Assembly: GCF_018736105.1 (NCBI RefSeq)
Contig: NZ_CP076135.1
Span: 4,338,001 to 4,402,000 of the forward strand
Direction of reading: 5' to 3'
From: Bradyrhizobium sediminis
GTDB lineage: Bacteria > Pseudomonadota > Alphaproteobacteria > Rhizobiales > Xanthobacteraceae
Length of the DNA stretch: 64,000 bases
The notes beneath the pieces were generated by a model. It had not been told where the DNA came from, ran no database searches, and saw only the letters and a program-made list of their open reading frames with translations. How positions within the stretch are numbered: position 1 is the stretch's first letter; the number at the start of each line of letters is the position of its first letter. The translations under genes were made by a program, and so were the position numbers. Shown in pieces: positions 21,000 to 39,413 of the stretch.

Positions 21000-23615
21000 A
21001 TGACCGAACCGAAAAGACCGAGCCCTCACGGCGTCCCCGACCACCAGCCTGCGGCCGGCGGCATTGCCGCGCGTGCGCGGGCGGCGGCGACCCCGCAATA
21101 CCTCTCCGGCCTCAATCCCGAGCAGCGCGAAGCGGTGGAAACGCTTGACGGTCCCGTGCTGGTGCTGGCGGGGGCCGGCACCGGCAAGACCCGCGTGCTG
21201 ACCTGCCGGATCGCCCACATTCTCAGCCAGGGCCGCGCCCGGCCCGGCGAAATCCTCTCCGTCACCTTCACCAACAAGGCGGCGCGCGAGATGAAGCTGC
21301 GGCTGGGGCAAATGCTCGGCCAGGCCGTCGAAGGCATGCCGTGGCTCGGCACCTTCCATTCGATCGGCGGCCGCATCCTGCGCACCCATGCCGAGCTGGT
21401 GCAGCTGAAATCCAACTTCACCGTGCTCGATGTCGATGACCAGATCCGGCTGCTCAAGCAGCTGCTCGCCGCCGACAATATCGACGACAAGCGCTGGCCG
21501 GCCCGCATGCTGGCAGGATTGATCGACGGCTGGAAGAACCGCGGGCTGACGCCGTCGCAGGTGCCGCCGGGCGAAGCCGCGGTGTTCGGCAATGGCCGCG
21601 GCGGCAAGCTCTATGCGGCCTACCAGGAACGCCTGAAAATCCTCAACGCCGCCGATTTCGGCGATCTCCTGCTGGAAAACATCCGGCTGTTCCGCGAGCA
21701 CCCCGACGTGCTCCGGCAATACCAGCACCGCTTCAAGTTCATCCTGGTCGACGAATACCAGGACACCAACGTCGCGCAGTATCTGTGGCTGCGGCTGCTG
21801 GCGCAGGCGCCGTCGAAGCCGGGCGTCCCCCTCTCCTCGGTCATTCCGGGGCGCATCGAAGATGCGAACCCGGAATCTCGGGCGGCACAGGATTCAACTC
21901 GGGATTCCGGGTCTGCGCTTTCAGCGCAGCCCGGAATGACGGCGCCAAATCCCCCCAGGAACATCTGCTGCGTCGGCGACGACGACCAGTCGATCTATGG
22001 CTGGCGCGGCGCCGAGGTCGACAACATCCTGCGCTTCGAGCACGATTTTCCCGGCGCCAAGGTCATTCGCCTCGAGCGCAACTACCGCTCCACCGGCCAT
22101 ATCCTCGCCGCCGCCTCGCACCTGATCGCGCATAATGAAGGCCGGCTCGGCAAGACGCTGCGCACCGAAGACGTCGACGGCGAAAAGGTCACCGTCACCG
22201 GCTCCTGGGATTCCGAAGAGGAAGCCCGCGCCATCGGCGAGGAGATCGAGGAACTGCAGCGCGCCGGCAACAAGCTCAACGACATCGCGATCCTGGTGCG
22301 GGCCTCGTTCCAGATGCGCGAATTCGAAGACCGCTTCGTCACGCTCGGCCTGCCCTATCGCGTGATCGGCGGGCCGAGGTTCTACGAACGCGCCGAGGTC
22401 CGCGACGCGCTGGCTTACTTGCGCACCATCAATTCGCCGGCCGACGACCTCGCCTTCGAGCGCATCGTCAACGTGCCGAAGCGCGGGCTCGGCGACGCCA
22501 CCGTGCAGATGCTGCACGACCACGCCCGCAAGCGCCGGATTCCGCTGTTCGAGGCCGCCCGCGCCGTGGTCGAGACCGATGAGCTGAAGCCGAAGGCGCG
22601 CGGCTCCCTGCGCGACCTGATCGCCAGTTTCGATCGCTGGCGCGCGCAGCGCGAGGTGACCTCGCATACCGAACTGGCCGAGATCGTGCTCGACGAAAGC
22701 GGCTACACCGAGATGTGGCAGAAGGACCGCTCCGCCGACGCCGCCGGCCGGCTCGAGAACCTCAAGGAACTGGTGCGCTCGATGGAGGAATTCGAGAACC
22801 TGCAGGGGTTCCTCGAGCACATCTCGCTGGTGATGGACCGCGACGGCGGCGCCGAGGACGATGCGGTTTCGCTGATGACGCTGCATTCGGCCAAGGGGCT
22901 GGAATTCGACAACGTGTTCCTGCCCGGCTGGGAGGAAGGCCTGTTTCCGAGCCAGCGCACGCTGGACGAACAGGGCCGCGCCGGCCTCGAAGAAGAGCGC
23001 CGCCTCGCCCATGTCGGCATTACGCGCGCGCGCCGCCGCGCCAAACTCTATTTCGCCACCAACCGCCGCATTCACGGCACGTGGTCGACCACGATCCCTT
23101 CGCGCTTTCTCGATGAACTGCCGGCGCCGAATGTCGAGATCACGGAATCCAAGGGCGGCTCGGGCTGGGGCGGCAGCGGCGGCTACGGCCCCTCGCGCTT
23201 CGACAATGTGGAATCCTTCGGCTCCAGCTATTCGACGCCGGGCTGGCAGCGCGCGCAGGCCCAGCGTGCGCGCGGCCAGAACGGCGGCCGTGGCGGCGGA
23301 CAGGCCGGCGGCGGTTTCAATGAAAGCCAGTCACCGTTTTCAGGTTCGCGCGGCGATACCTCAGGTTCGCGCAGCGATACCTCAGGTTCGCGCGGCGAGG
23401 GCTTCTCGCGCAACAAGCGCGCGCCCCTGACCATCGAAGGCGAGCTGATCGCGAAATCCACCGGCACCACGTCGGAATTTTCGCTGGACGACCGCGTGTT
23501 TCACCAGAAATTCGGCTACGGCAACGTGGTGAAGATCGACGGCAACAAACTCACCATCGCGTTCGAGAAGGCCGGCGAGAAGAAGGTGGTCGATAGTTTC
23601 GTCGAGCGGGTGTGA
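21000..23615 (+). CDS. UvrD/PcrA-type ATP-dependent DNA helicase with in-frame repeat insert
   Basis: 871 residues, superfamily 1A. Motifs in order: Q-motif LNPEQREAV (38-46), Walker A GAGTGKT (58-64), motif II DEYQDTN (251-257), motif III GDDDQSIYGWRGAE (326-339), motif V TLHSAKGLEF, motif VI VGITRARRRA. The roughly 70 residues between motifs II and III include about 34 (281-314) encoded by a palindromic repeat that also occurs between other genes here. The C-terminal tail holds a Gly/Arg-rich stretch with a 7-residue tandem repeat and a final Tudor-like segment (FHQKFGYGNVVKIDGNKLTIAFEKAGEKKV) found in PcrA. It unwinds DNA in repair and replication restart; no exact uvrD/pcrA name is assigned because both subfamilies share these motifs. 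Confidence 0.9.
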   Translation: MTEPKRPSPHGVPDHQPAAGGIAARARAAATPQYLSGLNPEQREAVETLDGPVLVLAGAGTGKTRVLTCRIAHILSQGRARPGEILSVTFTNKAAREMKLRLGQMLGQAVEGMPWLGTFHSIGGRILRTHAELVQLKSNFTVLDVDDQIRLLKQLLAADNIDDKRWPARMLAGLIDGWKNRGLTPSQVPPGEAAVFGNGRGGKLYAAYQERLKILNAADFGDLLLENIRLFREHPDVLRQYQHRFKFILVDEYQDTNVAQYLWLRLLAQAPSKPGVPLSSVIPGRIEDANPESRAAQDSTRDSGSALSAQPGMTAPNPPRNICCVGDDDQSIYGWRGAEVDNILRFEHDFPGAKVIRLERNYRSTGHILAAASHLIAHNEGRLGKTLRTEDVDGEKVTVTGSWDSEEEARAIGEEIEELQRAGNKLNDIAILVRASFQMREFEDRFVTLGLPYRVIGGPRFYERAEVRDALAYLRTINSPADDLAFERIVNVPKRGLGDATVQMLHDHARKRRIPLFEAARAVVETDELKPKARGSLRDLIASFDRWRAQREVTSHTELAEIVLDESGYTEMWQKDRSADAAGRLENLKELVRSMEEFENLQGFLEHISLVMDRDGGAEDDAVSLMTLHSAKGLEFDNVFLPGWEEGLFPSQRTLDEQGRAGLEEERRLAHVGITRARRRAKLYFATNRRIHGTWSTTIPSRFLDELPAPNVEITESKGGSGWGGSGGYGPSRFDNVESFGSSYSTPGWQRAQAQRARGQNGGRGGGQAGGGFNESQSPFSGSRGDTSGSRSDTSGSRGEGFSRNKRAPLTIEGELIAKSTGTTSEFSLDDRVFHQKFGYGNVVKIDGNKLTIAFEKAGEKKVVDSFVERV
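21840..21940. repeat. palindromic element, family A, inside helicase gene
   Basis: 101 bp with 11-base terminal inverted repeats (GTCATTCCGGG / CCCGGAATGAC) and two internal hairpins: CGCATC-GAA-GATGCG and CTGCGCT-TTC-AGCGCAG. Related copies lie at 32968-33047 and (one-hairpin form) 39375-39413. Here it is translated in frame as part of the helicase. Confidence 0.85.
23340..23402 (+). repeat. three tandem 21-bp units in helicase gene
   Basis: The unit TCAGGTTCGCGCGGCGATACC is repeated at 23340, 23361 and 23382 (the last copy diverges at its end). It encodes SGSRGDT, SGSRSDT and SGSRGEG in the flexible C-terminal tail. Confidence 0.8.
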
Positions 23616-32807: not shown

Positions 32808-32967
32808 GAAAGCTCCGGCTTGAACCCGGCTGAAAGCCGGAGGCGGAAATCCGGCAGGGGTGCCGGTTGGGTCGGATAGAGCATACGGCAAGATCGCGAG
32901 CAATGCAGGACGCAGGAACCTATTTGGCGCTGTGCTGACATTCACATCTTCGCTAATGATTGGAAAC

Positions 32968-33047
32968 GTCATTCCGGGATGGTCCGAAGGACCAGACCCG
33001 GAATCCCGAGATTCCGGGTTCGATGCTTCGCATCGCCCGGGAATGAC
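32968..33047. repeat. palindromic element, family A (copy 2)
   Basis: 80 bp between two divergent genes, bounded by GTCATTCCGGG and its near-inverse CCCGGGAATGAC, with hairpins GGTCC-GAA-GGACC and CGATGC-TTC-GCATCG. Terminal sequence and hairpin order match the copy in the helicase gene. It is open in both orientations in one frame. Confidence 0.85.
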
Positions 33048-39374: not shown

Positions 39375-39413
39375 GTCATTCGGGGCGCGTCGAAGACGCG
39401 AACCCGGAATGAC
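39375..39413. repeat. palindromic element, family A, single-hairpin form
   Basis: 39 bp between GTCATTCGGGG and CCCGGAATGAC with the hairpin CGCGTC-GAA-GACGCG. It equals the left half of the other family A copies and lies two bases after the stop codon of the aminopeptidase gene. Confidence 0.75.

Follow-up and report, generated by a model that had tools for sequence, protein, structure and literature searches.

Inverted pairs of REP sequences, or REPINs, are moved by RAYT transposases, and the element described here is likewise an inverted REP pair. Its nearest published counterparts are the CGTC-tagged REPs, which occur in Bradyrhizobium, carry an AT-starting stem of 8 bp behind the CGTC tag and form head-to-head dimers, with TGTC and CCTC as common tag variants and other loop lengths in Bradyrhizobium CGTC-1 (Di Nocera et al. 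2013, PMC3733652). According to the same paper, many intragenic CGTC REPs lie in repair genes, the UvrD/Rep helicase and UvrA being named among the hosts; recB of two Xanthomonas species carries different REPs at about the same site, the one case comparable to ours, and other genes of a category carry REPs at different sites. RAYTs are tied there to GTAG repeats, and no transposase was found to be linked to the CGTC repeats. Palindromes inserted in frame into genes are also known from Rickettsia (RPEs; insertions reviewed in PMC10969869), where the host is different and the likeness to our element is one of description; PMC3733652 nevertheless groups RPE-4 and RPE-6 with the CGTC repeats, which makes the comparison with Rickettsia drawn in the initial annotation of this locus an apt one. 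In contrast, Hahn et al. (2016, PMC5082802) described Br-REP1 and Br-REP2 from intergenic regions and 3'-UTRs. Intragenic REPs, the UvrD/Rep helicase as a host and the bias towards repair genes are therefore already known (PMC3733652). What differs here is that several kinds of repeat make use of the same loop in different genera, and searches of the open-access literature yielded no report of different repeats reusing a single UvrD or UvrA loop.

The locus lies in a 64,000-nt stretch of the Bradyrhizobium sediminis genome (contig NZ_CP076135.1, positions 4,338,001 to 4,402,000), referred to as the window in the rest of the text, in which we delimited the following features.

21000..23615, plus strand: uvrD/pcrA-type DNA helicase gene, 871 aa (open frame, profile and PDB match)
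21750..21770, plus strand: helicase motif II, DEYQDTN, intact (sequence)
21807..21950, plus strand: additional residues (roughly 270-317) that the empty outgroup loops lack; boundaries approximate (loop comparison)
21840..21880, plus strand: left REP arm, 41 nt (inverted-pair analysis)
21881..21899, plus strand: spacer between the arms, 19 nt (inverted-pair analysis)
21900..21940, plus strand: right REP arm, 41 nt, Br-REP2-like with small gaps (inverted-pair analysis)
21972..21998, plus strand: helicase motif III region, VGDDDQSIY, intact (sequence)

The best NCBIfam model for the 871-aa product is pcrA, with a score of 762.5 bits that lies below the model cut-off of 911.2, and PDB entry 1pjr, a solved PcrA, is matched with an E value of 1.4e-159. 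As initially annotated, the frame is continuous across the element, which sits between DEYQDTN and VGDDDQSIY (which we take to be motifs II and III), and the motifs on both sides, DEYQDTN and VGDDDQSIYGWRGA, are intact. DEYQDTN and VGDDDQSIY are separated by 67 residues, compared to 19 in the empty form, so that the extra stretch amounts to about 48 residues; the 34 or so extra residues first reported correspond to the recognisable element and fall short of the whole stretch. In the alignment with 1pjr, the blocks stop at residue 241 and resume at residue 244, indicating that the insert takes the place of a two-residue turn between helix and strand. In RecA-like folds, such helix-to-strand turns generally sit away from the nucleotide. 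An AlphaFold model built from 35 sequences, weak as a whole (mean pLDDT 68.4, pTM 0.42), gives pLDDT values below 50 at residues 279-317 and thus predicts a disordered insert between a helix (258-268) and a strand (321-327). From the intact motifs and conserved flanks, the enzyme is probably active. The C-terminal linker of the same protein contains a small direct repeat, SGSRGDT / SGSRSDT / SGSRGEG (window 23340-23400).

The observation is confirmed: the bases 21840-21940 comprise two units, in inverted orientation, of a Bradyrhizobium REP that is Br-REP2-like and CGTC-tag-like. The Br-REP2 consensus agrees with the reverse complement of the left arm at 36 of 40 positions and aligns with the right arm with gaps, and the 11-nt left half of Br-REP1 is also present. 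The arms are 73% complementary, the terminal 11 nt form a perfect inverted repeat (GTCATTCCGGG/CCCGGAATGAC), as had been claimed, and single-stranded DNA from 21836 to 21944 folds into a cruciform-like structure of -38.9 kcal/mol (shuffles -19.7, sd 2.8; z -6.85), a stability reached by none of 200 shuffles. The right unit has the tag CGTC, on the minus strand at the outer end, and the left unit GGTC. Like members of the CGTC superfamily, the element is multi-copy and frequently dimeric, and the stem of its left unit (ATTCCGGG/CCCGGAAT) has 8-9 bp beginning with AT. However, the 4-5 nt loop and CCA-like tail of that superfamily are absent, the loop being about 18 nt long and holding a small hairpin of its own, and the tail being CTCG; for this reason, we call the element CGTC-REP-like rather than a filed member of the superfamily. 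A search of Rfam returned two weak matches only, far under the thresholds.

At E <= 0.01, with 40 of 85 candidates scored, the element has 57 matches in the genome (5.45 Mb, a single contig). Some places are counted more than once among them, as two halves or on both strands, and about eight matches besides the query are full-length. Copies elsewhere in the window, initially described as near-identical, do exist, but the term is too strong: identity is 84% in each arm at 32968-33047 and 92% over one arm at 39375-39410. Other full-length copies are 74-81% identical, and single arms reach 100% over 37 nt. The copy at 32961-33047 was rejected as a coding repeat, as it lies between two divergent genes, upstream of the likely true starts; the dimer at 32953-33047, of the window element's type (type A, see below), lengthens the N-termini of two divergent open frames of 611 and 866 aa.

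The matched blocks that flank the loop are at most 21 nt apart in 22 of 24 order-level genomes from different families, two being not assessable, and the spacing from DEYQDTN to VGDDDQSIY is 19-24 residues in all 29 class-level loci (the best 29 of 184 matching genomes). Empty or short loops were seen in Methylobacterium, Bosea, Ancylobacter, Stappia, Roseibium, Hyphomicrobium and Rhizobium, among others. The stretch in the window's UvrD is an insertion relative to these outgroups, and distant orthologues with the same residues, which would have spoken against the initial annotation, were not seen among the 29 class-level loci; its statement that a repetitive palindromic element entered the frame without breaking the gene is borne out. 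The chance that we are dealing with an ordinary conserved helicase loop merely resembling a repeat is practically nil: although the loop is long in every genome of the genus that was read, copies of this sequence are scattered over the genome, different repeat kinds occupy the loop and the outgroups are empty.

To classify the contents of the loop, we collected 198 uvrD loci (L031-L228), both motifs being found in 197. On the basis of peptide signatures, 14 rows being assigned by hand, 49 of the 197 loops were empty or short, 39 belonged to type A, 39 to B, 21 to C, 18 to D, 9 to E and 3 to F (Mesorhizobium and relatives); one was a doubtful A and 18 were unclassified. A blastn library of 84 repeat copies from the window's genome, minus the six in-frame candidates presented below, was compared with the 181 rows that had a usable CDS, and the DNA matches agreed with the peptide class for 39/39 A, 35/37 B, 19/21 C and 17/17 D rows. 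Three of the nine type E rows matched B and six had no match, suggesting that B and E may be one kind. No library match was found in the empty (38), unclassified (16) or F (3) rows. In total, the library matched the UvrD loop in 113 of the 181 CDS and other positions of UvrD in four; in L089, L219, L222 and L227, repeat matches lie outside the loop, late in the frame, so that the C-terminal linker may be another site where repeats are tolerated. Within the library, there were no matches between types save 12 short ones between A and B (17 nt in one example), and A and C, by eye, both bear CGTC-like tags. At least four kinds without detectable sequence relation to one another (A, C, B/E and D) thus occupy the UvrD loop. 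Each of the five genomes searched contains multiple copies of B, C and D, with 19-80 matches as lower bounds, some of them halves of one place (35 B, 33 C and 61 D in the window's genome). The sister rows L206 and L222, with type A and type E arms, respectively, have the peptide EGVSLEDTWD in common at the middle, as though only the arms around a retained centre had been exchanged. The loops of L192 and L195 carry DEDVPFDVHPDD and DDDIPFDIHPDD, which are reminiscent of the acidic motif at the tail of single-strand binding protein.

A uvrD match was obtained in 34 of 35 related genomes of the genus in the first search, and these, together with the window's own genome and 22 further ones (G270 left out), make up the 57 genus genomes read. 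The loop is filled in all 57 and the frame is kept in 56. The gap that the initial annotation expected in other Bradyrhizobium orthologues was therefore not found, the loop being often filled by another repeat kind. In the genus member L504, the uvrD frame is broken within a type-B loop repeat, either by a real loss or by a sequencing error in the hairpin. Outside the genus, loops of at least 38 residues also occur in representatives of 28 genera of the family, picked mainly for a match bridging the loop. Since the 60 loci L169-L228 were selected from rows with such a match, their filled fraction is no estimate of occupancy; family genera with a split match fall mostly outside the loci covered, and Ancylobacter is empty.

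We followed nine loop states on a FastTree phylogeny of the 197 flank proteins, from which the insert was omitted. At least six pairs of rows represent the same genome reached twice (five with identical flanks, plus L103/L207), and support is modest, with 66 of 189 inner branches reaching 95. Loop states change 76 times on this tree, compared to a minimum possible of 8 and a shuffled mean of 125. If only the well-supported branches are considered, the minimum numbers of changes are still 11 for label A, 13 for B, 13 for C and 14 for D. A single clade with 61 rows of the Bradyrhizobium group contains 30 A, 22 B and 9 C, and different types are found at 95.5-96.1% flank DNA identity (L044 A and L047 B; L090 A and L099 C; L059 C and L082 B; L097 D and L175 C). 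Of 115 rows compared by flank DNA, 59 have a nearest neighbour of another type. In L041, L047, L118 and L506, type B sits right behind the remnant of a type-A arm, an arrangement that suggests landing in or beside an older repeat. We infer that refilling of the loop would result from new insertions and not from template switching among repeats.

A single ancient insertion, the types being swapped between species as cassettes by homologous recombination via the conserved flanks, is very unlikely in our view. It finds some favour in the C and D inserts, whose closest similarities are those between uvrD copies from different genera; in five genomes each, their best matches outside their own genome were uvrD copies of other genera. 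In pair analyses that omit 51 of the 197 rows, whose flanks failed gap-free alignment, same-type inserts were more alike across genera than the third codon positions of the flanks in 184 of 190 C, 89 of 105 D and 12 of 15 E pairs, the corresponding counts being 349 of 630 for A and 347 of 703 for B. Such likeness across genera counts against fresh insertion, as constraint or exchange would account for it equally well or better, and for C and D recent insertion is not favoured. However, membership of the same type brought no added similarity to the 20 codons before and the 20 codons after the insert (difference -0.0013, permutation sd 0.0031), a value as high as the observed one being obtained in 1319 of 2000 permutations, which argues against exchange together with the flanks.

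Repeats from the window's genome were also examined for other coding locations. The 90 places considered (41 A, of which two are halves of one dimer, 13 B, 20 C and 16 D) are the best matches to loop-derived queries, a choice that may favour certain repeat shapes. Six of them are situated within an open frame that continues for 60 codons or more, with coding-like composition, to either side, five in recognised genes, and four of these five genes function in repair or translesion synthesis: uvrD, dnaE2 (error-prone polymerase; type A in frame), uvrA (type D in frame) and uvrB (type B, in the tail, past the end of the family profile). The gene for pyruvate dehydrogenase E2 (L279) carries type D in a linker. 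The sixth candidate, L258, passed the composition test and was dropped by eye, without a family search. Assuming roughly 60 repair genes in some 5,200, the chance that at least three of the four genes other than uvrD would be repair genes is about 6 in a million, an indicative value only. An even sample of 1.26 Mb (60 stretches and the window) contained 80 repeat places and two accepted interior cases, uvrD and pyruvate dehydrogenase E2; a 24-nt match in L459 was taken as chance, by eye.

Among 30 UvrA loci from the bacterial family, with frames chosen by motif, the library matched 16 (8 B, 5 D, one of them over 18 nt only, and 3 C), in all cases in a single loop ahead of the FSEKFACP segment. 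DnaE2 was matched in 4 of 27 readable loci, in the same loop in the window's genome and G021, nearby in L338 and far upstream in L332. In DnaE2 of L345 and L354, from two genera, repeat-like stretches without a library match were noticed by eye after ADAF.SLGL.RR.ALW. In the only two control genes, MutS gave a single 18-nt match in 29 loci and GyrA gave none in 30; a MutS hit in L379 was rejected because the frame there is not MutS. SOS control was considered as a factor that the decorated genes might share. A GTTCN7GTTC box, the pattern of the SOS box, lies upstream of the uvrA frame at L277:620-634 and may be there by chance, as 24 of 294 loci contain one. No such box was found near uvrD in the window, which has one in its whole length compared to 1.77 expected, or around dnaE2 in L325.

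When loops were sampled by type, the loop was the most stable stretch of its own gene in 29 of 32 cases for A, B, D and E together, compared to 1 of 8 for type C, 1 of 3 for type F and 0 of 7 for unclassified loops, which have neither a recognisable repeat nor excess structure. Long loops thus persist without repeat or structure, an observation more in keeping with tolerance and decay than with a hairpin that is required. The opposite reading is that selection retains repeats in repair genes, the hairpin, in the gene or its mRNA, or the disordered peptide tuning the expression or activity of nucleotide-excision repair, so that lineages refill the loop after a loss. This would suit the four decorated repair genes of one genome, the single UvrA loop reused by B, C and D, the filled loops throughout the genus and the strong folding of A, B, D and E, and PMC3733652 likewise argued that the presence of repeats in repair genes is not due to chance. 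Yet several genera keep loops devoid of repeat and structure, C and F are seldom the most stable stretch, neither the repeat sequence nor the peptide is conserved, and the loops of Rhizobium, Bosea and Methylobacterium are empty or short; we therefore regard such retention as rather unlikely.

The best explanation, which we consider probable, is a permissive loop that receives repeats, lets them decay and has them overwritten by others, the frame being kept by selection. The helix-to-strand loop of UvrD would have received a dimer from a dispersed REP family; this loop may tolerate some 20-90 extra residues, so that copies that keep the frame would survive. Over time, old copies would decay and others, often of a different kind, would land in or beside the remnant, while purifying selection on the helicase would maintain the frame. 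The inserted peptide would need no function, and the insert is presumably tolerated rather than used. Passive tolerance does not explain, however, why four of five decorated genes are repair genes and why MutS and GyrA are free.

It is conceivable, though unlikely, that in this bacterial group genes for nucleotide-excision repair and translesion synthesis are the preferred hosts of coding repeats and that the repeats act as exchangeable regulators of mutability, in which case different repeats would be attracted to, or retained in, the same UvrD and UvrA loops because the hairpin or the loop affects repair or the mutation rate. Altogether, our results suggest that such repeats can settle harmlessly at certain sites of some repair proteins. 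A single protein loop makes testable the printed remark that REPs in repair genes look non-random: the UvrD loop supplies many natural alleles with different repeats, close relatives differ from one another at this position and two other genes stay free of repeats. The loop also forms a natural series of coding sequence gained from repeats, decaying and being replaced.
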